DNA from: a virus
IMG/VR virus record: IMGVR_UViG_3300046167_000066
Span: 1 to 34,182 of that record
DNA: 34,182 nt
Strand: one strand, 5' to 3'
In this document: in pieces, positions 6,795-27,248 of the stretch
Layout: each line of letters opens with the position of its first letter
Position numbering within the stretch: position 1 is the stretch's first letter
Position numbers and translations under genes: made by a program
The notes under the pieces: generated by a model
The model's input: only the letters and a program-made list of their open reading frames with translations
Database searches by the model: none
What the model was told of the DNA's origin: nothing

Positions 6795-6797
6795 GAT

Positions 6798-7298: not shown

Positions 7299-7402
7299 AA
7301 AAGATTTACAAACCTAAAGAGGGGAACGTAAAAAAATTATTAACTTATTTAAAAAGCAATAATGGCTACATTAACAAGCACGAAAATAAAAAATACTTAT
7401 GA
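7286..7402 (+). CDS. Possible small basic protein bridging connector and fibre, copy 1
   Basis: A 38-residue ORF (MGIIKKIYKPKEGNVKKLL...) starts inside the connector gene and ends 41 nt inside the fibre gene. It covers the only otherwise empty gap between them (7299-7361). It is basic and has a plausible start, but overlaps on both sides and has no recognised family. It may simply carry the ribosome from connector to fibre. Duplicated at 11075-11191. Confidence 0.3.
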   Translation: MGIIKKIYKPKEGNVKKLLTYLKSNNGYINKHENKKYL

Positions 7403-7586
7403 TGCGTTATTAAAGTCAATAGACAATGATGCAATAGGAACAACAGCAAAACAGATCACAGACGGACTTGGAAACCTTACTCCATTATATATATCAACAA
7501 CACAAATAGGAATAGGAGTAACACCTGAATCAGGATTAAACCTTCACGTTTATGGAGATGCTAAAATAGGTAGGACAAAAATCTAA
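7362..7586 (+). pseudogene. Truncated tail fibre N-terminus (duplication junction)
   Basis: The first 70 codons are identical to the 1511-residue fibre at 11151. The frame then crosses the duplication breakpoint at 7572-7573 into out-of-frame capsid sequence and stops after four foreign residues (RTKI). The product would be a 74-residue stub lacking all shaft and receptor-binding sequence. If made, it might compete with full-length fibre for its virion attachment site; that is speculation. It arose from the tandem duplication, not from gradual decay, since no other damage is seen. Confidence 0.85.
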
Positions 7587-7746
7587 CATTTACTTTGGTA
7601 CAGGTCTATTATCTGACCACAACGAAGTTAAGTTATTAGATATGGCTGACCTAGATGGTTCTCAAAACGTAAGAGTAGTTATGAGGTTCTCAGCAGGTGT
7701 ACAATATGGAATAGGAAGTGACCTATCTTTATTGACATTAGCTTAA
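7573..7746 (+). pseudogene. Orphan 3' fragment of the major capsid gene
   Basis: Identical to 3784-3957, the last 58 codons of the capsid gene including its stop, with no start codon of its own. It was created by the tandem duplication and joined to the fibre stub in another frame. It carries the capsid 3' hairpin with it. Confidence 0.9.
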
Positions 7747-7761
7747 TAAATTGTTTAACAT

Positions 7762-7799
7762 AGAAGGGTAGGTAAGGTGTATACCTGCTTACCCTTTCT
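7762..7799 (+). terminator. Duplicate of the capsid 3' hairpin
   Basis: Identical to the hairpin at 3973-4010, 3,789 bases downstream. Here it would lie between the fibre stub and the second tail-tube-like gene and might reduce read-through into that gene. Confidence 0.45.
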
Positions 7800-7817
7800 T
7801 ATAAAAATTATAATAAT

Positions 7818-8360
7818 ATGGCTTGTACATTAACAACAGGAAGAAACATACCTTGTAAATCTTCTGTCGGTGGACTTAAAACAGTTTACTTTTCAGATTA
7901 TGGTCTTACTGTTACTGATAATAGCACAGATGCAGAAAAAGTAGATATAGGAGGAACTCCTGACTTTTTTCAATACGACCTTAAAGGTAGTTCATCTATG
8001 GAGACAGCAGTAAACAGCTCAAGAGAAAATGGTACTACTTTCTTTGAATCAACTTTAAATATTTCGTTACAATTATTAGATAGTAAAACACAAGAAGAAT
8101 TAAAGATTATAGCTTTAGGACGTCCACAAATCGTAATAGAAGACTATAATGGTAATTTCTTTTTAATGGGTAGAGAACACGGATGTGAAGTATCTGGTGG
8201 CTCATTCACAACAGGTGCAGCTATGGGAGATGCTTCGTCATTCTCTTTAACATTAACAGCTCAAGAAGTATCAGCTCCTGCATTCCTTGCAGATTCAACT
8301 GATGTAACTGATAATGTAAATGCAGCTAAGATTTCACCTGCTACTCCTAATAATGGATAA
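7818..8360 (+). CDS. Probable major tail (tube) protein, copy 2
   Basis: Encodes the same 180 residues as 4029-4571. In this copy the upstream context is the junction rather than an intact capsid gene. It would therefore depend on read-through from the portal/connector transcript that starts at element C. A second dose of a major virion protein could alter tail stoichiometry if the duplication is real. Confidence 0.6.
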   Translation: MACTLTTGRNIPCKSSVGGLKTVYFSDYGLTVTDNSTDAEKVDIGGTPDFFQYDLKGSSSMETAVNSSRENGTTFFESTLNISLQLLDSKTQEELKIIALGRPQIVIEDYNGNFFLMGREHGCEVSGGSFTTGAAMGDASSFSLTLTAQEVSAPAFLADSTDVTDNVNAAKISPATPNNG

Positions 8361-8382
8361 TAAATTATTAAGTTAGAAAATT

Positions 8383-8410
8383 AAGGGGACTATATGTCCT
8401 CTTTTTTTTT
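8383..8410 (+). terminator. Rho-independent terminator, copy 2
   Basis: Identical to 4594-4621: AGGGGAC / GTCCTCT stem followed by a T-run. Confidence 0.8.
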
Positions 8411-8420
8411 GCATTTAACA

Positions 8421-8451
8421 CAAAATATAGTTTTTTTTTCGATATATAAGT
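8421..8451 (+). promoter_or_regulatory. Late promoter-like element C (copy 2)
   Basis: Duplicate of 4632-4662, with CGATATATA from 8440 and ATG at 8452. The duplicated segment therefore carries its own promoter, so the second portal operon and the full-length fibre can be expressed. Confidence 0.65.
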
Positions 8452-8832
8452 ATGAAGAAACTTACTACAAGTGCATCATCTCAAACTATAAAGATTATAC
8501 CAAGAAGTTATGTTACTTCTTCTACTACTTTAAAAGTAAGAGACGATTCATTAAATGAAGAATTTAGCTTTACAGTAACTCCATCTGTTGATGGTAATTA
8601 TCTAAGTATTTCTAATGAATATACATCTTCAGGAAATTCAATATTAAAAGAGGGTAGAACTTATGACATAGAGTTATTAGATACATCTTCTAATATAATA
8701 TACAAAGACAAAGTATTTTGTACTGACCAAACTGTAGATCAATCAAGTAATGACTATTATTCAATTAATGATGGTCAATATACATTTGATACTACAGCAG
8801 GTTCTCACGATAACGATTACATAATAATATGA
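8452..8832 (+). CDS. Unknown beta-rich structural protein, copy 2
   Basis: The same 126 residues as 4663-5043, with the same ATGA overlap with the portal gene and the same promoter-like element. No family recognised. Confidence 0.7.
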   Translation: MKKLTTSASSQTIKIIPRSYVTSSTTLKVRDDSLNEEFSFTVTPSVDGNYLSISNEYTSSGNSILKEGRTYDIELLDTSSNIIYKDKVFCTDQTVDQSSNDYYSINDGQYTFDTTAGSHDNDYIII

Positions 8833-10583
8833 ACGATTTAAGAATAGTAAATTTAAGCACTTACACAAGTCCTAAAATAAAAGAAGTTAGTAATAGAGAT
8901 TGGATTTCTTATGGAGAGGACAACAACTACTTTCAATATCTTATAGACAGATATAATGGAAGTCCAACTAACAATGCCATAATAAATGCTGTATCTTCTA
9001 TGATATATGGTAAAGGATTAGATGCTACTAATTCCAATAAAAAACCAGATCAATATGCACAAATGATTTCATTATTTGATAATGATAGTGTAAGAAGATT
9101 AGCATACGACTTAAAATTAATGGGACAATGTGCAATACAGGTAATTTATTCTAAAGACAGAACTAAGATTGCTCAGATAGAGCATATGCCTGTAGAAACA
9201 CTTAGAGCAGAGAAGTGTAATGAGAAAGGAGATATTGAAGCATATTACTATTGGAAAGATTGGGAAAAGATTAGACCATCAGACAAGCCTTTAAGAATAC
9301 CTGCATTTGGTACAAGCAAAGAAGCTATAGAAATACTTTATGTAAAACCATACAGATCAGGATATTATTATTATAGTCCTGTAGATTATCAAGGTGGTTT
9401 ACAATATGCAGAGCTTGAAGAAGAAGTATCTAACTTTCACTTAAACAACATTCTTAATGGTATGAGTCCTTCTATGTTAATTAACTTTAACAACGGTACT
9501 CCTAATGCAGAGGAAAGAAGACTTATAGAGCAAAGAATATACAACAAATTTAGTGGGTCAAGTAATGCAGGTAAGTTCATATTAGCTTTTAATGATAATG
9601 CAGAGAGTGCTGCAAGTATAGAACCTGTTCAACTTAGTGATGCACATAATCAGTATCAATTCTTGTCTGAAGAATCTACTAAAAAGATAATGGTAGCTCA
9701 TAGGGTCGTTTCTCCGATGCTTTTAGGCATAAAAGATAACTCAGGGTTAGGTAACAATGCAGATGAGCTTAAAACAGCTTCTACGCTTATGGACAATACT
9801 GTTATCAGACCTTTTCAACATCTTTTAATAGATGCCTTTGACCAAATCTTAGCTTATAATGGTATTTCACTTAAATTATACTTTAAGACTTTACAACCTT
9901 TAGAATTTACTGAATTAGATAATGTAGAGGATGAGGAAACTAAAGAAGAAGAAACTGGAGTTAAATTATCTAAAGAAGACCTAACTGATGAGGAGTTTGA
10001 TATTATTCTTGATGAACTTAGAGGTGAGACAATGTCTAATAGATGGGAAGAAGTAGATGCAAGAGAATATAAAGACGACAATGAAAGTGAAGAAGAATGG
10101 GCAAGTAGATTAATACAATCTAAGAAAGAAAATTTAGAAAAGAAAAGTATCGATTCTAAGAAATCAGGCTTTAGCTACTTAGACAAGTCTTTATATAAAG
10201 TGAGATATAAATACAATGAGAAATATTCTTCTGGTAAATCAAGACAATTCTGTAGAATTATGATGAATAGAAGTAGACGTAAAGTAGTTTATAGAATAGA
10301 AGATATTGATAAGGCTAGTAGAGCAGGAGTAAATAAGTCATTTGGACATAAAGGAAAATCTTATGATTTATTCAAATATAAAGGAGGGGTTAATTGTGGT
10401 CACTATTGGAGTGAAGTGTTGTATAGGTTAAAATCTAAGACAATGAAAAAATCAATACAAAACTATGATGAGGTAGATAATATTCCTAAATCATATCAAC
10501 CAACTCCTGCAGGACATAAAAAGGCAAAGATAGCTCCAAAAGATATGCCTAATGAAGGACATCACCCAAGTTATAATAAATAA
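8829..10583 (+). CDS. Portal protein with C-terminal extra domain, copy 2
   Basis: Encodes a protein identical to 5040-6794. Two nucleotides differ: Pro150 is CCA here and CCT in copy 1 (9278), and Ile346 is ATT here and ATC in copy 1 (9866). This copy lies directly upstream of the intact connector and full-length fibre, so it has the ancestral downstream context. Domains are as described for copy 1. Confidence 0.8.
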   Translation: MNDLRIVNLSTYTSPKIKEVSNRDWISYGEDNNYFQYLIDRYNGSPTNNAIINAVSSMIYGKGLDATNSNKKPDQYAQMISLFDNDSVRRLAYDLKLMGQCAIQVIYSKDRTKIAQIEHMPVETLRAEKCNEKGDIEAYYYWKDWEKIRPSDKPLRIPAFGTSKEAIEILYVKPYRSGYYYYSPVDYQGGLQYAELEEEVSNFHLNNILNGMSPSMLINFNNGTPNAEERRLIEQRIYNKFSGSSNAGKFILAFNDNAESAASIEPVQLSDAHNQYQFLSEESTKKIMVAHRVVSPMLLGIKDNSGLGNNADELKTASTLMDNTVIRPFQHLLIDAFDQILAYNGISLKLYFKTLQPLEFTELDNVEDEETKEEETGVKLSKEDLTDEEFDIILDELRGETMSNRWEEVDAREYKDDNESEEEWASRLIQSKKENLEKKSIDSKKSGFSYLDKSLYKVRYKYNEKYSSGKSRQFCRIMMNRSRRKVVYRIEDIDKASRAGVNKSFGHKGKSYDLFKYKGGVNCGHYWSEVLYRLKSKTMKKSIQNYDEVDNIPKSYQPTPAGHKKAKIAPKDMPNEGHHPSYNK

Positions 10584-10586
10584 GAT

Positions 10587-11087
10587 ATGGCAACAGCATT
10601 ATTCATAAAACCAATAGACATTAAAAGAAATACCATAATAGATGGTAATGTCGATGTAGATAAATTTATTCAGTTTATTAAAATAGCTCAACAGATTCAC
10701 GTTAGGAATTATCTTGGAAGTGATTTATATAATAAGATCAGTAGTGATATTATAGCAGATACTTTAACAGGTGACTATCTAAGTTTAGTAAATACTTATA
10801 TCCAACCTATGCTTATTCATTTTGCTATGGTAGATTATTTACCATTTGCAGCTTACCAGGTTAAGAATGGAGGAGTATTTAAACACTCATCTGAAAATAG
10901 TGAGACAGTATCTAAAAATGAAGTAGATTATTTAGTAAATAAAGAAAGAGAGTTTGCAGAATACTATACAAGAAGATTTATAGATTATATGGCTAACAAT
11001 CAAAACTTATTTCCTGAATATACAAGTAATACAAATGAGGACATAAATCCTGATAAAGATGCAACATTTAACGGATGGGTATTATAA
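10587..11087 (+). CDS. Head-tail connector-like protein (DUF6712 type), copy 2
   Basis: The same 166 residues as 6798-7298, three bases after the second portal gene and followed by the intact fibre gene. Confidence 0.6.
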   Translation: MATALFIKPIDIKRNTIIDGNVDVDKFIQFIKIAQQIHVRNYLGSDLYNKISSDIIADTLTGDYLSLVNTYIQPMLIHFAMVDYLPFAAYQVKNGGVFKHSSENSETVSKNEVDYLVNKEREFAEYYTRRFIDYMANNQNLFPEYTSNTNEDINPDKDATFNGWVL

Positions 11088-11191
11088 AAAAGATTTACAA
11101 ACCTAAAGAGGGGAACGTAAAAAAATTATTAACTTATTTAAAAAGCAATAATGGCTACATTAACAAGCACGAAAATAAAAAATACTTATGA
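11075..11191 (+). CDS. Possible small basic protein bridging connector and fibre, copy 2
   Basis: Duplicate of 7286-7402: 38 residues overlapping the end of the connector gene and the first 41 nt of the fibre gene. Weak call; no family. Confidence 0.3.
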   Translation: MGIIKKIYKPKEGNVKKLLTYLKSNNGYINKHENKKYL

Positions 11192-14100
11192 TGCGTTATT
11201 AAAGTCAATAGACAATGATGCAATAGGAACAACAGCAAAACAGATCACAGACGGACTTGGAAACCTTACTCCATTATATATATCAACAACACAAATAGGA
11301 ATAGGAGTAACACCTGAATCAGGATTAAACCTTCACGTTTATGGAGATGCTAAAATAGGTAGCAATCTAACAGTTATTGGAAACTTAGTAGTTGAAGGAA
11401 GCACTACAACAGTAGGAACAGATACATTAACAGTAAAAGACCCTTTAATTGTACTGGCAAACAATAACACCTCTACAGATGCAGTTGACATAGGTTTTTA
11501 TGGCAAATATACTCCTTCAGGTACCACACTATACTCAGGACTGTTTAGAGAAGCTCTAACAGGCAAATATAGGTTATTTAAGGATTTACAGGTTGAACCT
11601 ACTACAACAGTAAATACAAGTGGAACTGGGTATGCTCAAGCTACTTTAATTGCTGCCTTAGAAGGTAATGTAACAGGTAATGTTACAGGTAATCTGACGG
11701 GTAATGTTACAGGAGGAACAATATCAGGTACTACAGGAACATTTAGTGGTAATGTAGATATTGACGGAACATTAGATGTAGATGATGTAATAAGTGTTGA
11801 AGGTTCTGCTTTTGGTAGAATAGAAATAGGTGGAGCTTCAGGTGGTTATATAGATTTAAAAGCACCTAACTCTGATGATTACGATTTTAGAATAATTACA
11901 AGTTCTGGTGGTAATGAAATAACTACAGCTACAGGTGACTTAATATTTAATACAGCAGAAACATTAGCGTTAACGATAGACACTTCACAAGATGCCACAT
12001 TTGAAGGAAATATAATACTTTCAGGAACAGTCGATGGTAGAGATGTTTCAGTAGATGGGACAAAATTAGATGGTATTGAAGCAGGAGCAGATGTAACAGA
12101 TGCTGCTAATGTGTTGGCGGCAGGTGCAGTAATGACTACTGGTAATCAATCTATTAGTGGAGTAAAAACATTTAGCGACAACGTATCAATTGCTACAGAC
12201 AAAAAACTGTATTTTAACTCAACAGCAAATTTATCTTTATATCATAATAACAGTACAAATGGTTCGATTATAGAAAACAGTCAAGGTGACTTGACTATTC
12301 AAGGAATTGGTTCATCTGATGATGTAAACATAAAGTCAGCAGACGATGTTAAGATTTTTGTTAATGGAACTGACCAAGCAATAGATGCAAATGCTTCTGG
12401 TGGTGTTGAATTATATTACAACAATAGTAAAAAGTTTGAAACTACAAGTACAGGAGTTACAGTTACAGGGAATATAAATCTAGGAGACAATAATAAAATA
12501 CTATTTGGTGATGGTGGAGATATAGAAATGTTTTATAATGGAAGCACTTTTGTAATTGACGATACAGTAGAGGCTTTAAATGGTATAGACATTGACACAA
12601 ACTTAGTAAGATTTAGAGGTACTGACCTATATACTGAGCTTAATAATGGTCAACATACATTTTGGATTAATGGAACTCAAAGATTTCAAATAAATAGTAC
12701 AGAAGTAGATGTTTCTCACAATTTAAGTGTAACAAATGATTTAATAGTAGACACAGATACTTTGTTTGTAGATACTTCAGAAGATTCTGTTGGTATTGGT
12801 TTGACTAATCCTAGTGACTATTCTGCTGATGAATTAGTTATAAGTGTGCCTGATGATAGTGGAATGACTTTAGTTAGTGGAACTACAGATACAGCTTATA
12901 TAAGATTTGCAGATGGTACTGCGGCAGCAGACCAAGCAAACTTTATTTCACACGACCATAATACAAACACTTTAACTGTTTTTTCACAAGCTAAAGTTTC
13001 TATAGGAATATTAGAAGCTGAAGTTGCATACTTTACAGATACTGCTTTTTATGTAGATAAATCTACAACTATTGATGATACTTTGACTGTTAATGGTAAC
13101 TCAACTTTTGCAGGAGAAACATATTTTAACAAAGGAGTTAGATTTTATAGGTACACAGACCAAGCTAACTTTTGGTCAGTATATACTAATACAGACGATT
13201 CATTAAGATTTAATTATAATGGTGCGGGTAATGATGAAATAACAATAGACACATCAGGAAACTCAACTTTTGCAGGTACAATAGTTAGTGACAATATAAC
13301 AGTTGGTTTATCAGATGGTAATGATAGCTCAATATCTTTAACTGCAAATACGGGTAATTGGAAATTTACTAACGTACAATCAAATAGAAATTTAGAAATA
13401 TCTGATACAGACGGTACAGGAACAGTTATGACTATTGATACTTCTGGAAACGTAGGAATAGGGAATACAAATCCTTCTGCTTTTGGAAAATTTGTTGTTC
13501 AAGGTACAGGTAATTTATTAAACTTAAATGCAACGAGTGGTAAAGTATATCAAGCATTTTATGAAAATGGTGTAGGTAGATTTTATTTAAACACTTTAAA
13601 TGGTTCTGATGGTTTAGCTTTTACAGATGCTGATGGTGCAACAGAAAGAATGCGTATAGATAGTTCAGGAAACGTCTCTATTGGTCAGGATGTAGGAGGA
13701 AGTGCTTTTAATGGAGCAAGTGTTTTACAATTATCTCCTTATACTTCTGGGCAACCTGTTTATATAGGACTAAAATCTGATACCTCTAATAACTGTGGTA
13801 TTTTAATGGGAGATAGTGATGATAGTTATGTAGGTGGAATAATTTATAATAACCCAAATAATTATCTTGTTATAAATACTAATAACGCAGAAAGAATGCG
13901 TATAGACAGTTCTGGGGATGTATCTATTAAAACTGGATATTTATCTATAGATTCAGTAGCGAATAATTCTGCATCAGTAGCAGGTCAATATAGATTAGCA
14001 TTAGGTCACGATGCAAGTACAGATGCTTCTTGGATTCAAAGTAATGGTGTAAGTGGAACACAAAGAAAATTATTATTAAATCCTTTAGGAGGAAACGTAG

Positions 14101-15686
14101 GAATTGGAACTGATTCCCCTGATTATAAACTTCATATAAAAGAAACTACTACTGCAGCTAAAATGTACATAAATGGAGAAAATGGTACAGTAACATCTTC
14201 TTTATTAATAGGTAGAGATGCTCGTAATTGGGAAATTAAAACAGATACTGCAGTTAATATATATAGATATTCACTTTCTTATATTGGAACTGATTCTCCA
14301 GTACCAAATATATTTACTGCTTTAGCTTCTGGAAAAGTAGGAATTGGAACTGATTCACCTGCTGAAAAATTACATATTAGGGATGATAGCACAGACGCTG
14401 ATGTTTATATAAAAATAGCTAATGATTCTAGAGACTGGTTTATGGGTGTTGAAGGTTCAAATTCAGATATATTATCTTTCAAAACTCACGATGCTTCAAA
14501 TCTTTTAAATATAACATCTGGTGGAGAAATAGGCATTGGAACCACATTTGTATCTGCAAAAGTTCAAATCCATAGCACTAATGCAGGACAACCAACAATA
14601 CCCTTATTTATAGTCAATAAAAGTACAACTCTAAATACAGAAGCAAGGTTAGGTTTTGCTGCACATACAAACGATGATGTAGGTACAAATAGGTATTCAT
14701 ATATAAGTACAATAAATACAAGTGGTTCAAATGGTCAGGATATGATATTTGCCACTAATGCAACAGGTGCATCAGCAAGTGAAAGAATGCGTATAACATC
14801 TGGGGGGTTAAGTAGATTTAAATCACAAGCAGGTTCTTATGGTTATGGCTCAGGCTATAATTTTCACGAATTTAATAACGACTTTGGTAATCAACCAATA
14901 GCTATGTTTTGGCAAGCATCTGGAAGTGGCTCACATTATGGTATTAACGTACATAATAATGATGATGAAAACGATACTACTTCTCGTTTCTTTATGGGAA
15001 AAGGTGGAGGTACCGAAAGAATAAAAATATATTCAAATGGAAATATTGAAAACACTAACAATAGTTATGGACAATTATCTGATATTAAATTAAAGGAAAA
15101 CGTAACAGATGCTACTTCTAAGCTAGAAGATTTAATGAAAGTTCAAATTAAAAACTTTAATTATATAGGACAAGAACAAAAACAAATTGGTGTTATTGCT
15201 CAAGAGTTAGAACAAATATTTCCAAATTTAATATATGAAACTCCAAAAACAAAACGTGAAGAAGTAAACAAAACGGATAATGAAGGTAATATAATTTATC
15301 AAACAGAACAAAGATTAATTAATGAAGCTGTTGAAGGACAAGAGGCTATTGAGTGGAATGAAAAACCAACACAAGATAATACAAAAATTCAGATTCAAAC
15401 TTGGTTAGATAATAATAATATAGAGTGGCAAAGTGCAGATACGAAACAAGAATTACTTGATAGAATACCTGAATATCAACAAGAAGCAGTTGAAGCAAAG
15501 GAAGCAATATATGAAACAATAGAAACAGATGAACCTGTAAAAGAAAATGTAGAGTTAGCAACAGGAGAAGTTATAAAAGGAGTAAAATATTCTGTATTTG
15601 TTCCTATGTTAATTAAAGGAATGCAAGAACAACAACAACTAATCAATGATTTAAAAAGTAGAATAGAAACACTTGAGAATAATTAA
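11151..15686 (+). CDS. Long tail fibre / tailspike with S74 intramolecular chaperone
   Basis: A 1511-residue adhesin. The N-terminus (residues about 1-150) has the NLTVIGNLVVEGSTTTVG and IGFYGKY motifs seen at the virion end of marine phage fibres. A long trimeric shaft of beta repeats follows, including repeated GxVGIGTDSP and ERMRIDSSGxVSI modules (about 770-1230). At the C-terminus a peptidase S74 chaperone domain starts near residue 1305: QLSDIKLKENV, then NFNYIGQEQKQIGVIAQELE. Ser1310-Asp1311 is the expected self-cleavage site by analogy with endosialidase. A helix-loop-helix insert at 1413-1439 (WLDNNNIEW, TKQELLDRI) resembles HeH/SAP domains. The extreme end is a short coiled coil. This is the only full-length copy; its first 70 codons are duplicated at 7362. 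Confidence 0.85.
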   Translation: MATLTSTKIKNTYDALLKSIDNDAIGTTAKQITDGLGNLTPLYISTTQIGIGVTPESGLNLHVYGDAKIGSNLTVIGNLVVEGSTTTVGTDTLTVKDPLIVLANNNTSTDAVDIGFYGKYTPSGTTLYSGLFREALTGKYRLFKDLQVEPTTTVNTSGTGYAQATLIAALEGNVTGNVTGNLTGNVTGGTISGTTGTFSGNVDIDGTLDVDDVISVEGSAFGRIEIGGASGGYIDLKAPNSDDYDFRIITSSGGNEITTATGDLIFNTAETLALTIDTSQDATFEGNIILSGTVDGRDVSVDGTKLDGIEAGADVTDAANVLAAGAVMTTGNQSISGVKTFSDNVSIATDKKLYFNSTANLSLYHNNSTNGSIIENSQGDLTIQGIGSSDDVNIKSADDVKIFVNGTDQAIDANASGGVELYYNNSKKFETTSTGVTVTGNINLGDNNKILFGDGGDIEMFYNGSTFVIDDTVEALNGIDIDTNLVRFRGTDLYTELNNGQHTFWINGTQRFQINSTEVDVSHNLSVTNDLIVDTDTLFVDTSEDSVGIGLTNPSDYSADELVISVPDDSGMTLVSGTTDTAYIRFADGTAAADQANFISHDHNTNTLTVFSQAKVSIGILEAEVAYFTDTAFYVDKSTTIDDTLTVNGNSTFAGETYFNKGVRFYRYTDQANFWSVYTNTDDSLRFNYNGAGNDEITIDTSGNSTFAGTIVSDNITVGLSDGNDSSISLTANTGNWKFTNVQSNRNLEISDTDGTGTVMTIDTSGNVGIGNTNPSAFGKFVVQGTGNLLNLNATSGKVYQAFYENGVGRFYLNTLNGSDGLAFTDADGATERMRIDSSGNVSIGQDVGGSAFNGASVLQLSPYTSGQPVYIGLKSDTSNNCGILMGDSDDSYVGGIIYNNPNNYLVINTNNAERMRIDSSGDVSIKTGYLSIDSVANNSASVAGQYRLALGHDASTDASWIQSNGVSGTQRKLLLNPLGGNVGIGTDSPDYKLHIKETTTAAKMYINGENGTVTSSLLIGRDARNWEIKTDTAVNIYRYSLSYIGTDSPVPNIFTALASGKVGIGTDSPAEKLHIRDDSTDADVYIKIANDSRDWFMGVEGSNSDILSFKTHDASNLLNITSGGEIGIGTTFVSAKVQIHSTNAGQPTIPLFIVNKSTTLNTEARLGFAAHTNDDVGTNRYSYISTINTSGSNGQDMIFATNATGASASERMRITSGGLSRFKSQAGSYGYGSGYNFHEFNNDFGNQPIAMFWQASGSGSHYGINVHNNDDENDTTSRFFMGKGGGTERIKIYSNGNIENTNNSYGQLSDIKLKENVTDATSKLEDLMKVQIKNFNYIGQEQKQIGVIAQELEQIFPNLIYETPKTKREEVNKTDNEGNIIYQTEQRLINEAVEGQEAIEWNEKPTQDNTKIQIQTWLDNNNIEWQSADTKQELLDRIPEYQQEAVEAKEAIYETIETDEPVKENVELATGEVIKGVKYSVFVPMLIKGMQEQQQLINDLKSRIETLENN

Positions 15687-15694
15687 TATATTTG
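15687..15694 (+). promoter_or_regulatory. Possible Bacteroidota -7 promoter element
   Basis: TATATTTG fits the Bacteroidota -7 consensus TAnnTTTG immediately after the fibre stop and 25 nt before the next ATG. No TTG is seen at the usual -33 spacing, so it is a weak candidate for a promoter of the lysis cassette. Confidence 0.35.
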
Positions 15695-15718
15695 TAATAT
15701 AACTATAAATTTAATAAA

Positions 15719-15955
15719 ATGTCAAAAATTAGTAAAGAAGAATTAGAATCATTATTAGAATCAGAAAAGAAAGTTTCTGCTATTAAGCACGACTTAGGTA
15801 CACTAGATGAGCAAAAGCATAATCTATTACACGCTTTAAGTCAAGTTAGAGAAGAATCTAACAAAGTAAAGAAAGAACTAGAAGACAAGTATGGTAAAAT
15901 AAATATCAACTTGCAAGATGGTTCTTACGAGGAAATGAAAGAAGATAAAGAATAA
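15719..15955 (+). CDS. Small coiled-coil protein, 78 aa
   Basis: A charged helical protein (ISKEELESLLESEKKVSAIKHDLGTLDEQKHNLLHAL...) with heptad pattern through most of its length and no signal peptide or membrane segment. It follows the fibre gene and begins the run of lysis genes. No family is recognised. It could be a fibre-assembly cofactor or a lysis accessory. Ends 4 nt before the next small ORF. Confidence 0.6.
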   Translation: MSKISKEELESLLESEKKVSAIKHDLGTLDEQKHNLLHALSQVREESNKVKKELEDKYGKININLQDGSYEEMKEDKE

Positions 15956-15959
15956 CGCT

Positions 15960-16100
15960 ATGGATTTTGCAGATATGAAGATATACCTTATAAACTCAAT
16001 GGCTTTTCTAGTATCATTAACTGAGGTTGAGGTATGGTTAAAAATTATACTTCTAATCTGCACGATAGTATATACTATTCAAAAAACTAAAAAACTATGA
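15960..16100 (+). CDS. Small membrane protein, 46 aa
   Basis: The ORF encodes MDFADMKIYL... with a hydrophobic stretch at about residues 8-20 and a clear transmembrane segment at about 26-41, ending in a basic QKTKKL tail. Its stop overlaps the next ATG (ATGA). Size, topology and location upstream of an M15 endolysin suggest a holin or antiholin-like role, by position only. Confidence 0.5.
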   Translation: MDFADMKIYLINSMAFLVSLTEVEVWLKIILLICTIVYTIQKTKKL

Positions 16101-16375
16101 GTGAATTAAGCGAAGACAGTAAATTTGAAATTAGTATAAAGACACTTATTGCTATAGGGGTGGGGTTATCTACCCTTATAGGAATGTGGTTTGCCTTACA
16201 AGCAGACATAGAAGAAGCTAAGAAGCTACCTGAACCTGAGATTTCAAGAACAGAGTATGATTTAAAAGACAAGCTCGTAAGAGAGACAATAATGAATACT
16301 GGTAAAAAAGTAGAAGAAAACTCAGATGCGTTAAAGAAAATAGACGATAAGTTATTTGAAATAATTAGTAAATGA
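16097..16375 (+). CDS. Membrane-anchored coiled-coil protein (lysis cassette)
   Basis: A 92-residue protein with one transmembrane segment (about 15-32, TLIAIGVGLSTLIGMWFAL) and a charged, helical C-terminal half ending NSDALKKIDDKLFEIISK. It overlaps both neighbours by 4 nt. This topology resembles small phage holins of the one-TM type or Rz-like inner-membrane spanins. A lipoprotein two genes downstream could be a partner, but a canonical Rz/Rz1 pair cannot be asserted. Confidence 0.5.
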   Translation: MSELSEDSKFEISIKTLIAIGVGLSTLIGMWFALQADIEEAKKLPEPEISRTEYDLKDKLVRETIMNTGKKVEENSDALKKIDDKLFEIISK

Positions 16376-16713
16376 AAAAATTAATATTATGTGTGATATG
16401 TGTATTGGTTGCGGGCTTTGTATATAGTCAAGACGTAACAGTTCTGCAAATAAATGCAGAATGGAATAAAAAGAATAATTACGATTTAAGTGATATTACA
16501 GGTGCTACTGTTAAGTTTAGTTACTTGAAAGACCAGCCTAGAGATGTTCAGAACTCTATTATGGCTGTACCTGTAATTGTTATTATGGATAAATCAGGTA
16601 GAGTTAGAATGCAATATGTAGCAGATATATCTTTGCAAATTAAAGCTACTAGATTAGAAATACAAAATACTATAAATAGAATTAATAAACCTAGAAGGGC
16701 AAGTACAAATTAA
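16372..16713 (+). CDS. Secreted thioredoxin-fold-like protein lacking CXXC
   Basis: A 113-residue protein with an N-terminal signal peptide (MKKLILCVICVLVAGFVYSQ, cleavage near residue 20). The mature part follows the thioredoxin pattern: a strand leading to NAEW, then NKKN where CGPC is expected (residues 32-35). AVPVIVIMDKSGRVRMQYVA follows, with Pro67 at the usual cis-proline position. Without the two cysteines it cannot do thiol-disulfide exchange. A periplasmic binding or scaffold role in lysis or exclusion is possible. Overlaps the upstream gene by 4 nt. The fold call is by motif reading. Confidence 0.55.
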   Translation: MKKLILCVICVLVAGFVYSQDVTVLQINAEWNKKNNYDLSDITGATVKFSYLKDQPRDVQNSIMAVPVIVIMDKSGRVRMQYVADISLQIKATRLEIQNTINRINKPRRASTN

Positions 16714-16714
16714 A

Positions 16715-17056
16715 ATGAGATTTATTATATGTTTAATATTAATAATAGGGTGTGGAACTTATACTCCAAAACCAACAATCAAGCACGTTTTAGCAGTTAC
16801 TTCAGAAGGAGATACTCTCCTATTACCAATAGATAAAATAAGACCTAATATTTATCAATCTATTTATCCTCTGTATGCTAGGGAGTGGAATCCTTATTAC
16901 TATAATAACTGGAGATATAATAATATATACTCTAATAAAATATATTATGAATCTAATAGTAGCTCTAGTAACAATAATTCTACAAGCAATCATCAAACAA
17001 AAGACATATCAAGAATAGATATGAATGCTATAAAAGATAAAAGGAACGATAAATAA
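16715..17056 (+). CDS. Small lipoprotein
   Basis: A 113-residue protein with a short hydrophobic leader and lipobox LIIGC, giving Cys13 as the lipidated residue. The mature protein is rich in Tyr, Asn and Ser (WNPYYYNNWRYNNIYSNKIYY, then a Ser/Asn run) and ends in a charged helix. It sits one base after the thioredoxin-like gene and shares one base with the endolysin start. A role in outer-membrane disruption (spanin-like) is plausible from context, but there is no sequence match to Rz1. Confidence 0.55.
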   Translation: MRFIICLILIIGCGTYTPKPTIKHVLAVTSEGDTLLLPIDKIRPNIYQSIYPLYAREWNPYYYNNWRYNNIYSNKIYYESNSSSSNNNSTSNHQTKDISRIDMNAIKDKRNDK

Positions 17057-17538
17057 TGAATAAGATAAGCAAACATATAAGCTACAAAGAAGCTACTAGG
17101 AGTGCAACAGCTTTACGTTTAGGTATAGATAATAAACCTAATGAGTATGAGCTTCAAAATATGGAGATGGTAGCTAATAAAGTATTTGAACCATTAAGAG
17201 AGGCATTTGATGCTCCTATAAAAATAAACTCATTTTATAGATGCGAAGAACTTAATAAGGCTATTGGTGGAAGCAGTAAAAGCCAACATTGTCAAGGGAG
17301 AGCTATTGATATTGATGATGTTTATGGTAATGTTAGTAATGCTTATATGTATTATTATATTAAAGATAATCTCGACTTTGACCAAATTATTTGGGAGTTT
17401 GGTACAGACCATAATCCTGATTGGGTTCACGTAAGCTATGTAGATGAAGATTCTAATAGAAAAAGATGTTTAAGAGCAATAAGAGAAAATGGTAAAACTA
17501 AATATATAGATATAACAAATGAGCAAAATACTAAGTAA
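17056..17538 (+). CDS. M15-family peptidase, probable endolysin
   Basis: A 160-residue enzyme of the Peptidase_M15_3 type (D-Ala-D-Ala carboxypeptidase/endopeptidase fold) that would cut peptidoglycan cross-bridges at lysis. Zinc ligands visible are His78 and Asp85 in SQHCQGRAIDID and His125 in WVHVS; Glu114 (IIWEFG) is the likely catalytic base. A helical N-terminal part (residues 10-50) and FYRCEELNKAIGG complete the family pattern. It has no signal peptide, so it needs a holin, and a two-TM protein follows with a 20-nt overlap. Confidence 0.85.
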   Translation: MNKISKHISYKEATRSATALRLGIDNKPNEYELQNMEMVANKVFEPLREAFDAPIKINSFYRCEELNKAIGGSSKSQHCQGRAIDIDDVYGNVSNAYMYYYIKDNLDFDQIIWEFGTDHNPDWVHVSYVDEDSNRKRCLRAIRENGKTKYIDITNEQNTK

Positions 17539-17914
17539 ATTATTTGGAGCTGCAGGTGGAAACATAGCAGAAAAGATTTCAGGCATAATAGACAAACATA
17601 CTTTTAGTAAAGTAGAGAAAGCTCAATTTGAAAAGGAAATGGAGCAGATCTGGATTGATGCAGAAGCTGACATACAAAAGAATGTTACTGAGAGATGGAA
17701 AGTAGATATGGCTTCTGATAGTTTTCTTAGCAAGAATGTACGTCCAATGGTTTTAATATTTCTTGTAGTATCTACAGTTCTTATGGTATTTATAGATGCA
17801 GGAGTTATTGCATTTGAAGTTAAAGCTAATTGGATTGATTTATTACAGTTAGTTCTTATAACAGTCATAGGAGCTTATTTTGGGGGTCGTAGTGCAGAGA
17901 AATTTAGAAAGTAA
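17519..17914 (+). CDS. Holin-like protein (3TM holin family pattern)
   Basis: A 131-residue protein with an amphipathic N-terminus, a helical linker (HTFSKVEKAQFEKEMEQIW), then two strong membrane segments. They are MVLIFLVVSTVLMVFIDAGVIAF and LLQLVLITVIGAYFGGRSAEK (split here; residues about 80-102 and 108-125). The KNVRP motif before the first segment and GGRSAEK after the last are hallmarks of the GTA/phage 3TM holin family as I know it. It overlaps the endolysin gene by 20 nt and shares one base with the next small gene. It would open the inner membrane for the M15 enzyme. Confidence 0.7.
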   Translation: MSKILSKLFGAAGGNIAEKISGIIDKHTFSKVEKAQFEKEMEQIWIDAEADIQKNVTERWKVDMASDSFLSKNVRPMVLIFLVVSTVLMVFIDAGVIAFEVKANWIDLLQLVLITVIGAYFGGRSAEKFRK

Positions 17915-18039
17915 TGGCAAAGCTAACCACAAGTAATTATCGTGCTTCTAAACGCACAAAAAGACCTGGTGTTCATTCTAAGAATGCTAGTAAAGGTCAA
18001 GTAAAATTCAAAAAGAAATATAAAGGTCAAGGTAGATAA
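17914..18039 (+). CDS. Small highly basic protein, 41 aa
   Basis: MAKLTTSNYRASKRTKRPGV... with 14 or more Lys/Arg residues and a C-terminal KKKYKGQGR. I recall similar small basic peptides with a KxxRGQGR-like end in flavobacterial phages. Nucleic-acid binding or a virion-associated role is possible. It starts at the stop of the holin-like gene and ends 1 nt before the next ORF. Confidence 0.55.
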   Translation: MAKLTTSNYRASKRTKRPGVHSKNASKGQVKFKKKYKGQGR

Positions 18040-18040
18040 T

Positions 18041-18163
18041 ATGGAAACATTAAAACACTTATTAGGATTTTGTGGAGAAACACATCCAAACATTTTTACA
18101 ATCATTTTTATTATTGCAGTAATTATTTCTGCTTTTAAGTACAAAAAATATATATTAAAATAA
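18041..18163 (+). CDS. Small membrane protein, 40 aa
   Basis: METLKHLLGF... with one transmembrane segment (about residues 18-32, FTIIFIIAVIISAF) and a basic KYKKYILK tail. Last gene of the lysis cassette. Could be an antiholin or accessory holin; unrecognised family. Confidence 0.5.
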   Translation: METLKHLLGFCGETHPNIFTIIFIIAVIISAFKYKKYILK

Positions 18164-18168
18164 TTTTA

Positions 18169-18176
18169 TATATTTG
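18169..18176 (+). promoter_or_regulatory. Possible Bacteroidota -7 promoter element
   Basis: TATATTTG matches TAnnTTTG just after the lysis cassette. Transcription from here would run through a small potential hairpin (CAAC...GTTG near 18200) and the polypyrimidine mirror repeat into ninG. No clear TTG at -33. Confidence 0.35.
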
Positions 18177-18236
18177 TTTTTGCTTATAGCTAAACTTGCA
18201 CAACCTAATAAAGTTGGACGGTGCTTGGAACAGGTA

Positions 18237-18306
18237 TTACTTTCTTTCTTTTTTACTAGGTTTTTTCTTTCTTTTTCTTTTTACTCTTTTTCTTTTTCTT
18301 TCTTTT
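18237..18306 (+). repeat. Homopyrimidine tract with perfect mirror repeat (H-DNA type)
   Basis: An almost pure T/C run of about 70 nt. Within it 18263-18282 and 18287-18306 are exact 20-nt mirror images around the spacer ACTC. Homopurine-homopyrimidine mirror repeats of this length are the classic substrate for intramolecular triplex. The tract lies in the only non-coding gap between the lysis and replication modules (18164-18331), so it may be a replication, pausing or module-boundary element; function is inference. Confidence 0.75.
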
Positions 18307-18331
18307 AATTATAATTTATATCTTAGTGTAT

Positions 18332-18745
18332 ATGAGAAAGGTATCACGCAAAAGTCTTGTAAAGAAATTAGATGCAATATTCTCTGAATATATAAGACTT
18401 AGAAAAGCTAATAAGAAAGGCATAGTATCTTGCTATACTTGTGGTAAGAAAGCATATTGGAAAGGTGCAGGAATGCAGAATGGACATTTTATGTCTAGGA
18501 AATCTTACTCTACAAGATGGGAGGAGCTTAACTGCCAAGTACAATGCTATTCCTGTAATTGTATGAGATATGGTGAACAATACAAGTATGGCTTAGAACT
18601 CCAAAAAGAATATGGTAAAGACTTACCAGAACAGCTTCTTATACAATCTAAACAGATCAAAAAGTTCTCTAATATAGACTTAGAGGATATGATAAATAAA
18701 TACAAAGACTTAGTAGATAAAAGGAAAAAAGAATTATCTTTGTAA
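18332..18745 (+). CDS. ninG: NinG-like recombination nuclease
   Basis: A 137-residue protein with the lambda NinG/Rap pattern. Zinc-binding CYTCGK (C-x2-C) is followed by MQNGHFMSRKSYSTRW and QCYSCNCMRYGE (second C-x2-C), and a Leu-rich helical end. NinG-type proteins carry an HNH-like fold and act on recombination intermediates such as Holliday junctions and D-loops. I prefer ATG at 18332 over an in-frame GTG at 18326. It is the first gene of the early module, isolated by the pyrimidine tract upstream and a terminator downstream. Confidence 0.8.
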   Translation: MRKVSRKSLVKKLDAIFSEYIRLRKANKKGIVSCYTCGKKAYWKGAGMQNGHFMSRKSYSTRWEELNCQVQCYSCNCMRYGEQYKYGLELQKEYGKDLPEQLLIQSKQIKKFSNIDLEDMINKYKDLVDKRKKELSL

Positions 18746-18784
18746 GCATAATCTGTTTCTCGCAGGTCTTATAGTTTTGTTTTG

Positions 18785-18816
18785 AAGGGAGGGATTAATT
18801 TTCCTCCTTTTTTTTT
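18785..18816 (+). terminator. Rho-independent terminator after ninG
   Basis: GAAGGGAGG pairs with CCTCCTTTT around a GATTAATTTT loop and is followed by a T-run ending at 18816. It separates ninG from the replication operon promoter. Confidence 0.8.
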
Positions 18817-18822
18817 ATGCAC

Positions 18823-18852
18823 TTGTTTTATTAACATTTTTTAATTAACTTG
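18823..18852 (+). promoter_or_regulatory. Early promoter candidate P1
   Basis: TTG at 18823-18825, 20 nt, then TAACTTG at 18846-18852. This is close to the Bacteroidota TTG-N19-21-TAnnTTTG pattern with one base missing in the -7 element. It sits directly after the ninG terminator and about 40 nt before the first replication-operon ATG. Confidence 0.4.
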
Positions 18853-18894
18853 CTAAAGTATTGCAATAAAGCATTACATTAAAAACAATTATAT

Positions 18895-19107
18895 ATGACC
18901 CATAAAGAAGATTTATTAAGGCTTTTAAAAGCTGAGGTAGAGCAATTAAGAAAGCACTACTACGAGAGTGATGCTAAGATCAAGAAATTAGAGAATAGCA
19001 TTAAAGAGAAGGATAGTATTATAGAAAAATACGAACTTCATATTAAACAACAAGAAGTAAGAAACGCACATTTAGAAATTAACATAGTAGACGAATATAT
19101 AAAATAA
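18895..19107 (+). CDS. Small coiled-coil protein, 70 aa
   Basis: A highly charged protein with continuous heptads (LLRLLKAEVEQLRKHYYESDAKIKKLENSI...). First gene of the main early operon, downstream of candidate P1. The leading gene of an early operon is often a host-takeover or regulatory protein, but nothing in the sequence shows a function. Confidence 0.6.
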   Translation: MTHKEDLLRLLKAEVEQLRKHYYESDAKIKKLENSIKEKDSIIEKYELHIKQQEVRNAHLEINIVDEYIK

Positions 19108-19112
19108 TAAAT

Positions 19113-19502
19113 ATGAATTATACAGCACAAGTAAAAGAGATAAGCAAAATGGATAAACCACCTTTTGGTGATGGTATTCTAACTTATAAAATGAAAACTT
19201 CTAAACACGAAGGATTTTTATATACTCCTAAATTAAATTTACAAAATGGAGATGAGATTTCTTATGATTATTTACAACAAAAAAATCAAGAGTATAAATT
19301 TGCTAAAGTTAAAAAAGTAGGTATGTATAATAATTATAAAAAAGATACTAATACACAGACTTATAATAAACCTCAAGATACTCATAGCTCTATATTAAGA
19401 CAAGTAGCATTTAAAGGAGCTATAGAACTTGCTTCTTCTGGCAAGATAAACATACAAGAGATAGAAGAATTTACAAATACATTTAATCAAATATTAAAAT
19501 AA
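19113..19502 (+). CDS. Unknown early protein, possible OB-fold DNA-binding protein
   Basis: 129 residues. The N-terminal 70 residues alternate strands (ILTYKMKTSKHEGFLYTP, YKFAKVKKVGMY) in a way compatible with an OB fold. A Lys/Asn/Thr-rich linker and a helical end follow (SSILRQVAFKGAIELASSG, IEEFTNTFNQIL). I know the RQVAFKGAIE type helix from early proteins of marine phages, next to SSB and exonuclease genes. It lies 5 nt upstream of the SSB-like gene. A role in DNA replication or recombination is inferred from context. Confidence 0.5.
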   Translation: MNYTAQVKEISKMDKPPFGDGILTYKMKTSKHEGFLYTPKLNLQNGDEISYDYLQQKNQEYKFAKVKKVGMYNNYKKDTNTQTYNKPQDTHSSILRQVAFKGAIELASSGKINIQEIEEFTNTFNQILK

Positions 19503-19507
19503 TAATT

Positions 19508-19840
19508 ATGGAAATTACAGGTAGAATTAAAAAGATTAATAGTACACAAACAAGAGGTGCTAAAAACTTTAGAACTAGAACTATGTGGCTAGTAACAAAT
19601 GACAAATATCCTCAAACATTACAGGTAGAGTTTCTACAAGACAAAGTAAATCTATTAGACAACTTTACAGAAGGTTCTTTTGTTAGAACTGCTATTAACC
19701 TAAGAGGTAGAGAATGGCAGAATCCACAAGGAGAGGTAAAAGTATTTAATACTATTGAAGGATGGAAGTTAGAAGATGATGTAGAACAAGTAAGTGCTTC
19801 ACAACAGAGTCCTGACAGAAACAATGACTTACCATTCTAA
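19508..19840 (+). CDS. DUF3127-type single-stranded DNA-binding protein
   Basis: A 110-residue OB-fold-like protein: MEITGRIKKI, then TMWLVTNDKYPQTLQVEF and LRGREWQNPQGEVKVFNTIEGW, matching the DUF3127 family that serves as a small SSB in Bacteroidota and their phages. The tail is disordered, Gln/Ser/Asp-rich and ends NNDLPF, like the SSB C-terminal tip that recruits partner proteins. The stop overlaps the next ATG (TAATG). Confidence 0.75.
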   Translation: MEITGRIKKINSTQTRGAKNFRTRTMWLVTNDKYPQTLQVEFLQDKVNLLDNFTEGSFVRTAINLRGREWQNPQGEVKVFNTIEGWKLEDDVEQVSASQQSPDRNNDLPF

Positions 19841-20124
19841 TGACTGCTGAAGAAAGAAAAAAGACCCCTGTTTATTCAGGGGTTTTAAATTATTTTCCTG
19901 ATGCTATTTTAGAAGTGGCAAAAGTTTCTTATATTGGTAATCAACAACACCATCCTGATTTACCTTTACATTGGGACAGAAATAAAAGTACAGATGAATT
20001 AGATGCTCTTAGTAGACATCTTATTGAAGCAGGTAAGATTGATAGTGATGGTGTAAGACATTCAGCTAAGGTAGCTTGGAGAGCTTTAGCTAACTTGCAA
20101 AAAGAAATAGAAAACAATAATTAA
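19840..20124 (+). CDS. dATP/dGTP pyrophosphohydrolase-like protein (DUF5664 type)
   Basis: A 94-residue protein with PVYSGVLNYFPDAILEVAKVS, HPDLPLHWDRNKSTDELDALSRHL and AKVAWRALANLQ, the pattern of the DUF5664 family (named dGTP_diPhyd_N in Pfam). Related MazG/MazZ-like enzymes hydrolyse dNTPs and can reshape the nucleotide pool. This one is short, and I see no PurZ or DatZ nearby, so base replacement (2-aminoadenine) is not supported. A perfect terminator-like hairpin lies inside codons 8-16. It is part of the replication operon, one base before the helicase gene. Confidence 0.6.
   Translation: MTAEERKKTPVYSGVLNYFPDAILEVAKVSYIGNQQHHPDLPLHWDRNKSTDELDALSRHLIEAGKIDSDGVRHSAKVAWRALANLQKEIENNN
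19861..19886 (+). promoter_or_regulatory. Intragenic terminator-like hairpin (possible attenuator)
   Basis: ACCCCTG (19864-19870), loop TTTATT, CAGGGGT (19877-19883), preceded by an A-run and followed by TTT. It is a perfect 7-bp GC-rich stem in AT-rich DNA, just inside the DUF5664-type gene. Terminator shape is clear; whether it works when ribosomes translate through it is unknown. Confidence 0.55.
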
Positions 20125-20125
20125 G

Positions 20126-21040
20126 ATGCTAATAAACTTTGACCAACAGATTGATAAACTACAACAAATCAGGTCAGGGAAGATAGTAGAAGGTTTAGCA
20201 TTAGGATTCCCAGAAATAGACGAATACTTTAGATTCAAACAAGGTAACTTTTTAGTATGCTTAGGTCACGCTAATGTAGGTAAGACTACTGTGATTTTAT
20301 ATATGATGTTATTGTATTCATTAAAGCATAATATTAGATGGCTTGTATTTTCTAGTGAGAATGAAGCACATAGTATTATTAGAAAATTAATAGAATTCCT
20401 GGCAGCAAAACCTATAAACAAAATACCTGAAGAAGAATTTGTAAAGCACAAGAGTTTTGTATTTAATCAATTTAAGATAGTAGACTCTAATGAGCTTCAT
20501 ACTTATAAGACTTTATTAGAATTAGCTACAAGTATTAAGAAGGCTTGGAACTATCAAGGATTTCTTATAGACCCTTACAACTCTTTAATGAAAGATAGAG
20601 AGATGTTGAAAGGTATTAACTCTCACGATTATGACTATGAAGCAACATCTGAAATAAGATTATTCTGCAAGACTCATAATGTATCAGTATGGTTAAATAC
20701 TCACGCAGCTACAGAATCATTAAGAAAGAAACATTCTAATTCTGATGAATATGCAGGACATCCTATTCCTCCTATGGCAAGTGATGTAGAAGGTGGAGGT
20801 AAGTTTGTTAATAGAAGTGATGAGTTTCTAGTAATCCACAGATATACTCAACACCCTACAGATTGGATGTATAACCATATACACGTTAGAAAAGTAAAAG
20901 ACATTGATACAGGAGGAAGACCTACTCCATTAACAGAACCTATTAAACTTAAATCAATACTTAACAATGTAGGTTTCCAAATAAATGGTAATAATATTAT
21001 AACTCCAACTCTTACAGAACAAATAAACTTACCATTTTGA
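20126..21040 (+). CDS. DnaB-like replicative helicase (RecA-fold ATPase)
   Basis: 304 residues. Walker A is GHANVGKTT at 47-55; FSSEN at about 75 is the DnaB H1a motif. A Walker-B-like FLIDPYNSL lies near 145, and VSVWLNTHA near 195 is the sensor region. A basic C-terminal HVRKVKD near 250 matches the arginine-finger area of SF4 helicases. There is no separate N-terminal primase-binding domain, so it is a short phage form. It unwinds the replication fork; the neighbouring SSB and DnaA-like genes fit. The C-terminus ends NLPF, similar to the SSB tip. The stop overlaps the sigma gene start (TTGA). Confidence 0.75.
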   Translation: MLINFDQQIDKLQQIRSGKIVEGLALGFPEIDEYFRFKQGNFLVCLGHANVGKTTVILYMMLLYSLKHNIRWLVFSSENEAHSIIRKLIEFLAAKPINKIPEEEFVKHKSFVFNQFKIVDSNELHTYKTLLELATSIKKAWNYQGFLIDPYNSLMKDREMLKGINSHDYDYEATSEIRLFCKTHNVSVWLNTHAATESLRKKHSNSDEYAGHPIPPMASDVEGGGKFVNRSDEFLVIHRYTQHPTDWMYNHIHVRKVKDIDTGGRPTPLTEPIKLKSILNNVGFQINGNNIITPTLTEQINLPF

Positions 21041-21516
21041 AAACACCTGTAGAATTAGCATATGAGAAACATAACCAATGGGTAGAGATAGTACAAACCT
21101 TTGGTGGCTTAAACAAAGAGGAGTGTGAAGATTTGGTACAAACTATGTATATTCTGCTAATAAAGAATACTCAAAAAGGAATAGATTATTTATATAAAGA
21201 TGAGATAAACTATTATTATGTTTTTAAAATACTTAGAGGATTGTATGTAGATTTGATTAGAAAGAAAAGTAAAGTAAAACTGATTAGTTTAGAAAACATA
21301 GAACCTGTTACAGAAATAGATCACAACAATTATGATGAGGTCTATAATAAGCTCCAGGATATTTTAAAAGATATGTACTGGTATGATAAAAAAGTATTCG
21401 AAATAATAGAAGATGGCACTAACATAAGTGAGCTATCAAGAAAAAGTAAAATAAGTTATTACAGCTTATACAATACTTATAAGAAAGTTAAACAGAAACT
21501 AAAAGAAAATTTATGA
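21037..21516 (+). CDS. Phage sigma-70-like factor (ECF type)
   Basis: 159 residues with sigma region 2 at about 25-80 (KEECEDLVQTMYILLI, then YVFKILRGLYVDLIRKK, the -10 recognition helix pattern). Region 4 lies at about 115-157 (YWYDKKVFEII, ISELSRKSKISYYSLYNTYKKVKQKLKENL), a helix-turn-helix for -35 contact. Start is TTG at 21037, overlapping the helicase stop, so translation is likely coupled. Made early with the replication genes, it is the best candidate to direct host RNA polymerase to the CAAAAWW-N12/13-CGATATAT late elements. The family is clear by pattern; the target is inference. Confidence 0.7.
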   Translation: MKTPVELAYEKHNQWVEIVQTFGGLNKEECEDLVQTMYILLIKNTQKGIDYLYKDEINYYYVFKILRGLYVDLIRKKSKVKLISLENIEPVTEIDHNNYDEVYNKLQDILKDMYWYDKKVFEIIEDGTNISELSRKSKISYYSLYNTYKKVKQKLKENL

Positions 21517-27154: not shown

Positions 27155-27228
27155 TGCGAGATAGAGCAGTTGGTCAGCTCGTTAGGCTCATAACCTAAAG
27201 GTCGGAGGTTCGAATCCTCCTCTCGCAA
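27155..27228 (+). tRNA. tRNA with anticodon CAU (Met or lysidine-type Ile2)
   Basis: A full cloverleaf: acceptor TGCGAGA/TCTCGCA (7 bp), D-stem GAGC/GCTC, anticodon stem TTAGG/CCTAA with loop CTCATAA, T-stem GGAGG/CCTCC with loop TTCGAAT. The discriminator base is A and CCA is not encoded. Anticodon CAU is shared by Met tRNAs and by tRNA-Ile2, which reads AUA after lysidine modification. The first pair is a normal T-A, so it is not an initiator by that criterion. AUA is the dominant Ile codon here, so the Ile2 option matters. Confidence 0.9.
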
Positions 27229-27248
27229 CTAAAAATATTTATTAAAAA

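Follow-up and report, generated by a model that had tools for sequence, protein, structure and literature searches.

A conserved phage element with mirror-symmetric pyrimidine arms as a candidate for triple-helix formation on its own DNA

The DNA analysed here (the window) is the stretch of 34,182 nucleotides that makes up positions 1 to 34,182 of the IMG/VR virus record IMGVR_UViG_3300046167_000066, with a GC-content of 31%. The locus of interest follows the lysis genes: the endolysin (17056–17538) and holin (17519–17914) genes are succeeded by tiny open reading frames, the last of which ends at 18163. Downstream, outside the element and on the plus strand, lies a gene for a NinG/Rap-like junction endonuclease (18332–18745; PHROG 5034, E = 5.7e-24), which starts at ATG 18332 or GTG 18326 and is followed by SSB and helicase genes. 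The preliminary description had called the space before ninG the only intergenic gap toward the early region; according to the list of open reading frames, 18746–18894 is likewise non-coding. GC skew, suggested as a check for a replication origin near 18.2 kb, is uninformative and has no inflection there: the cumulative skew climbs steadily and all genes are on the plus strand. No iterons were found as a sign of an origin in the window. A scan of 15500–21500 detected no terminator-like site at the tract, where the G+C-rich stem directly before a U-run that marks an intrinsic terminator is absent.

Elsewhere in the window, positions 3783–7573 and 7572–11362 form a near-exact tandem duplication (offset 3789 bp, two mismatches in 3791), which includes the portal gene and may be either real or an assembly artefact. 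The contig ends carry a 17-nt direct repeat (1–17 and 34166–34182) that may reflect a circular map or be a mere repeat, and a phage tRNA-Met (CAT) gene is located at 27155–27229. By portal protein, the nearest cultured phage is Nonlabens phage P12024S/L (37.5% identity). The gap after the P12024S holin gene holds a TATATTTGC box and, by eye, a hairpin terminator, so that the idea of a late/early boundary stays alive; the composite element described below is not present in P12024S.

Judged by its sequence, the T/C tract is the 3′ part of a larger composite element at approximately 18169–18306 on the plus strand, which comprises a promoter box, a small hairpin, a conserved hairpin (ACUU-stem-UUGG) and the pyrimidine arms A1, A2 and A3, in this order. 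A TAnnTTTG sequence, noted earlier as lying near the tract, is present at 18169–18176 (TATATTTG). TAnnTTTG is the −7 consensus of Bacteroidetes, and the box is a putative promoter of this type, as its enrichment upstream of ACTT suggests. The small 5′ hairpin GCTTATAGC (18182–18190), predicted from 43 leader segments, lies between the box and ACTT. The conserved hairpin (18194–18228), identified by covariation, consists of ACTT, the stem GCAC (18198–18201), the 19-nt loop AACCTAATAAAGTTGGACG, the stem GTGC (18221–18224) and TTGG. Arm A1 (CTTTCTTTCTTTTTT, 18240–18254) mirrors the 5′ part of A2 at 14/14 positions. Loop 1 (18255–18260) reads ACTAGG, with GTAGG, GCTGG, CTAGGGAG and others in relatives. 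Arm A2 (18261–18282) has T-runs of 6, 3, 5 and 5 toward loop 2 (18283–18286); the latter reads ACTC in the window, and GTCC, ACCC, CTCC, ATCC, GTTTAC or GGTTAC in relatives, and is 4–6 nt long in nearly all members. Arm A3 (18287–18306), with T-runs of 5, 5, 3 and 4, is an exact mirror of A2.

The 20-nt mirror repeat of the preliminary description was confirmed, since 18263–18282 and 18287–18306 match at 20/20 positions around ACTC, as was the nearly pure pyrimidine composition, 43 of the 44 bases in 18263–18306 being T or C. This is the longest mirror repeat of the window. In the second longest (14 nt), A1 faces the 5′ part of A2 (18241–18254 and 18261–18274), and the third measures 13 nt. 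Perfect mirror arms in dinucleotide shuffles of the whole window (n = 25) had a maximum length of 10.4 on average and never exceeded 12. Shuffling of run order within 18237–18308 produced an arm of at least 20 in only 4 of 5000 trials, which argues that the repeat is more than a by-product of T-richness. An assembly or homopolymer artefact had been named as what would undo the observation; the tract recurs in contigs from many metagenomes and is therefore not an assembly artefact. Its homopyrimidine/homopurine composition and its mirror arms around a short (4-nt) central loop, retained through change in relatives, are those of pyrimidine-motif H-DNA. Sequence and symmetry thus fit the definition of an H-DNA motif, and the tract is a candidate for which formation is predicted.

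A ninG search of IMG/VR returned 59 loci, in many of which the tract precedes ninG; in distant ninG relatives, the arms in the DNA before the gene were altered together. The stretch from box to tract proved to be conserved as well as the tract itself. Patterns for this stretch matched 83, 96, 74 and 73 viral DNA stretches, on contigs of up to 95 kb, and the tract as a pattern matched 110 and 44 stretches, with 87 distinct tracts across all loci; the scans report exact-pattern loci only, so these counts are lower bounds. Each of 16 records searched whole contained one exact copy, and one of them had an extra two-mismatch match. We kept 135 distinct post-hairpin regions with at least 110 nt, of which 109 had a mirror score of at least 12 and 106 had three runs per arm; A1 was parsed in 101 of the 109. 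The 26 regions below the score include arm-less hairpins as well as L135 and L140, whose arms have C opposite G. Because the score threshold selects symmetry, the meaningful tests are those within the set (mirror versus direct repeat, permutation, near pairs). In L191, A3 is apparently deleted, while A1 and A2 are retained.

The genes downstream of the element vary among relatives. They lie on the opposite strand in L084 and L170, and both neighbours do so in L156; a simple 5′ leader therefore misfits some members. No constant downstream gene, of the kind that goes with a riboswitch or gene-specific leader, was found among the relatives.

The conserved hairpin has the consensus ACTT, four bases, two bases, CCTAATAAAG-N-TGG..., four bases, TTGG. 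Among 98 distinct 60-mers, 19 stem types were distinguished, and all four pairs were standard in 98/98. A G-U pair was present in 4 of the 19 stem types and other mismatches in none, which favours the hairpin as an RNA structure. In an alignment of 69 sequences, two of which are MAG copies that contain a single inner T.T, paired stem cells made up 99.6%, versus 54.3% in shuffles, and 123 cells had changed on both sides. This result is not circular for two of the patterns, because their stem bases were (almost) free; two other patterns held one stem side constant in some of the sequences. The tract pattern also revealed a second, short-loop type of hairpin (e.g., ACTT-CAAT-AGGAAT-ATTG-TTGG). 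Upstream of the 87 distinct tracts, 70 have ACTT, four pairs, a loop, four pairs and TTGG; the other 17 comprise three too close to the contig end, 13 with a three-pair version by eye, and L334 with none. Consequently, tract and hairpin travel as one unit in the tract-bearing family. In larger phages and two Cryomorphaceae MAGs, the hairpin also occurs without T/C arms and is to this extent independent of them.

In these two uncultured Cryomorphaceae MAGs the hairpin is situated in non-coding DNA (L258, 313–356, minus strand; L259, 590–633, minus strand), ~384 nt from a tRNA gene and within a longer conserved stretch absent from Rfam. Hairpin model R1, applied to 296 genomes of the MAG’s order, scored 59.5 bits for the MAG itself and at most 30 bits for the others. 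Scores of 28–30 bits were obtained for L262–L264, one locus common to three genomes, which may be oriC-like; they were treated as chance. The 3′ side of the hairpin may resemble the 3′ end of 16S rRNA. A blastn search with the 4.2-kb region found no match among known phage records, and blastn of the hairpins and of the MAG region gave partial or weak matches only, judged to be chance. Rfam 15 covariance models at gathering score identified only the tRNA in the window, a weak scan of 18100–18400 gave one chance match (E = 8.5), and 16, 2 and 20 further loci yielded tRNAs or nothing. Taken together, all Rfam scans gave tRNAs plus two weak matches regarded as chance. The element belongs to no Rfam family, and the hairpin family is new to Rfam.

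Of 100 distinct T/C-rich contexts, 82 have the promoter box TAnnTTTG within the 45 nt that precede ACTT, compared with 6.9 in shuffles. For the looser TAnnTTTR the figure was 99 of 100 (30.2 in shuffles), mainly 16–17 or 6 nt before ACTT. Arm-less contexts had TAnnTTTG in 4 of 25 (0.8 in shuffles). Nearly all of the 43 distinct leader segments at a box distance of 15–17 nt contain a hairpin of the GC-NNNNN-GC type; when the box lies 6 nt from ACTT, the small hairpin is absent by eye. On the basis of this consensus box, the element is probably transcribed. A second box follows A3 in 21 of 94 cases (3.3 in mononucleotide shuffles), so the next gene has its own putative promoter in some phages.

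Comparison of the mirror symmetry among related phages, a check proposed for the tract, was strongly positive. In 92 of 106 regions, the first three T-runs counted outward from loop 2 had the same lengths in A2 as in A3. Among distinct A2/A3 pattern pairs, 16 of 20 were identical, against a permutation mean of 0.95 and a maximum of 6 in 10,000; of the four non-identical pairs, two have an outermost counted run that is one or two T longer in one arm than in the other, and the remaining two are the short-run L201 and L062. The run patterns include 5,5,3 (window), 5,3,4, 5,4,4, 7,5,4,3 (L084) and 4,4,5 (L234). Asymmetric patterns were mirrored in 14 of 18 cases, and a direct repeat, tried as an alternative to the mirror, fitted 0 of 18.

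Close pairs, defined by leader and hairpin at least 93% alike, showed the same arms in 168 cases and both arms altered yet mirrored in 86 (11 kinds), compared with 9 one-arm and 4 non-mirror changes. Every printed kind among these 13 involves L062. The 11 kinds are the safer figure, because close pairs are not independent events. In L062, A3 reads T15 and T14 homopolymers and A2 is normal, probably through sequencing error or decay. The spacers between T-runs in A2/A3 were C/C at 288 of 317 positions; the remainder were G/C (12), G/G (5), C/G (4), A/G (3), G/A (2), and A/A, C/A and A/C once each. For A1 and the outer part of A2, both runs were equal in 77 of 101 regions and the loop-proximal run in 91 of 101. 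Distinct A1/A2 pattern pairs were equal in 6 of 18 (permutation mean 1.4, maximum 6 of 5000), a weaker signal than for A2/A3. It is very likely, from these paired changes, that selection acts on mirror symmetry.

In a triplex, one pyrimidine strand is Watson-Crick paired (antiparallel) and another Hoogsteen paired (parallel) on a purine strand. To our knowledge, triple-helix geometry (T.A-T, C+.G-C) is the only one that demands the same bases in opposite order. The H-DNA reading has strong comparative support, because the arms covary as mirrors and are almost purely T/C, and the predicted triplex-forming function is well supported by the mirror symmetry of the relatives. The earlier reading of the tract as H-DNA thus stands as regards a symmetry conserved in relatives, but not as regards its extent, the tract being only half of an element with a hairpin and a third arm. 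The G-U pairs of the hairpin and the promoter box point to RNA, against a purely DNA reading. An RNA hairpin across the arms is unlikely, because A-U and G-C pairs would then have evolved, whereas the arms stay T/C; ViennaRNA predicted A2 and A3 to be unpaired (0.92 and 1.00). The C/C spacers fit a triplex, because C+.G-C requires C, while the other spacers would weaken these triplets and count against it. With the spacer C kept and run lengths that vary from phage to phage, only the element’s own purine strand is certain to match. A search of 172 partial loci for a second matching purine tract with up to two mismatches gave 11 matches, none convincing; five of the six inspected were in the low-complexity L113. 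A triplex with the element’s own DNA has, in our estimate, about an even chance of being correct.

The best explanation of the whole is that of a transcribed element whose arms form a triplex on its own DNA, to which we assign a probability of roughly 0.5. Transcription from the box at 18169–18176 would produce a structured 5′ RNA domain with the ACUU-stem-UUGG hairpin, after which a C/U RNA would be copied from A1-A2-A3. The arms would be selected to remain pyrimidine and mirrored so as to form a pyrimidine-motif triple helix (T.A-T, C+.G-C) with their own purine strand. In one version, this would be H-DNA, driven by the negative supercoiling that RNA polymerase leaves in its wake, and either A1 or A3 could supply the third strand on A2. 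In the other, the nascent RNA would be the third strand on its own gene, which would unite the signs of triplex and of RNA. At the module boundary, the triplex may function as a local switch or as a roadblock, with RNA held at the locus, read-through blocked or the purine strand opened. We infer transcription, triplex formation, own DNA as the purine partner and the downstream effect. Tentatively, a short hairpin-anchored transcript could lay its C/U arms on its own DNA (as RNA.DNA-DNA or H-DNA) and thereby switch transcription or start replication.

Several other explanations were weighed. The element may encode a stand-alone small RNA that, like ENE/MALAT1, grips an A-rich strand between facing U-runs (U.A-U); this strand would be supplied in trans, or in cis in a few members. 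The element’s own promoter box and structured 5′ domain suit this, and so does the varying downstream gene, which can occupy the opposite strand (L084, L170), as would be expected of a separate RNA gene. Non-C spacers would matter less, and in L064/L097 and L113/L148 two U-rich arms are followed by an A-rich stretch instead of A3. We nevertheless consider it unlikely: an A-rich strand in cis is missing from the window, the 172 loci gave no convincing purine tract, and a merely A-rich partner leaves the C spacers at 288 of 317 positions unexplained. The G-run variant L145 is a further misfit, as intrastrand purine-motif triplexes do not form in RNA according to PMC4666352. The logic of a replication start, in which the promoter yields a primer RNA and the T/C tract serves as an unwinding site or a triplex/R-loop site for fork loading, is comparable to that of the ColE1 or T4 origins. 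The single exact copy in each of 16 records and, in the window, the adjoining ninG, SSB and helicase genes agree with such a start, but the lack of iterons and of a GC-skew change, and the position beside tail or unknown genes in L156, L164 and L084, make it quite improbable.

A conventional U-rich leader, attenuator or terminator separating late from early genes, whose symmetry would be incidental or recognised by an RNA-binding protein, would be in keeping with the box and by-eye terminator in the same gap of P12024S, the window tract being without a terminator-like site. Neither a U-tract nor a protein reading a single strand needs symmetry, yet the arms covary in 11 kinds of close pairs, and no GC-rich stem precedes the tract, so that we hold this to be very improbable. 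Least credible, and close to negligible, are chance, sequencing slippage, an assembly artefact or the coding of a hydrophobic peptide. The DNA is indeed T-rich and of low complexity, and L062 resembles homopolymer error; against this stand the same tract in many independent contigs and the shuffles. As for coding, none of the frames stays open across the element in every one of the 109 regions, the best being +1 (84/109), followed by +2 (40/109) and the minus frames (12–28). Conservative substitutions hinted at in ‘KLAQPNKVGRCLEQV’ are accounted for by the hairpin.

The in vivo role of H-DNA and triplexes is an old question, usually argued from the abundance of sequences. Here, the mirror symmetry of many phage contigs shows paired structure-keeping changes of the sort used to prove RNA helices, and a small single-copy element makes the triplex question directly testable. 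No description of a phage triplex element was found in the open-licence literature searched.

The element resembles pyrimidine-motif H-DNA in its homopyrimidine mirror repeat, its 4-nt loop and a symmetry kept by paired changes in relatives; in contrast to H-DNA, its motif is single-copy and conserved and sits within a larger element, alongside a third arm and an RNA-type hairpin. In comparison with ENE/MALAT1-type RNA triple helices, two facing U-rich motifs that mirror each other are found in A1/A2 and A2/A3, but the window has neither an A-rich tract nor flanking GC stems, and a C occurs every 3–6 nt. By eye, an A-rich third strand in cis was absent from 18180–18332 and seen only in L064/L097 and L113/L148; the window element is therefore not an ENE-type RNA. 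The literature searched contained no report of an ENE/MALAT1-type triple helix in phages. After the hairpin, L154, L166 and L182 have a G-C stem around a T-rich, partly mirrored internal loop and then the purine tract ATATGGGGG(GG)AG, an arrangement that looks ENE-type by eye.

According to PMC4666352, natural H-DNA motifs are few in prokaryotes, and the bacterial intrastrand triplex motifs (ITxF/TMECO) include the many-copy, G/C-rich TMECO. In L145–L147 and L151, the arms are replaced by CTCCC...GGGGGG(G)-TAA-GGGGGG(G), again a mirror repeat, and this order of C-run, G-run and G-run, with short loops, resembles class II of those motifs (PMC4666352). These four loci also carry a CCCCC...GGGG hairpin. 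The window element differs in that all three of its arms are pyrimidine and the same strand carries no purine arm. Lambdoid put sites likewise place a hairpin RNA right after a promoter at the start of a module; the action of put on RNA polymerase is through RNA alone, whereas the window element has predicted triplex arms.
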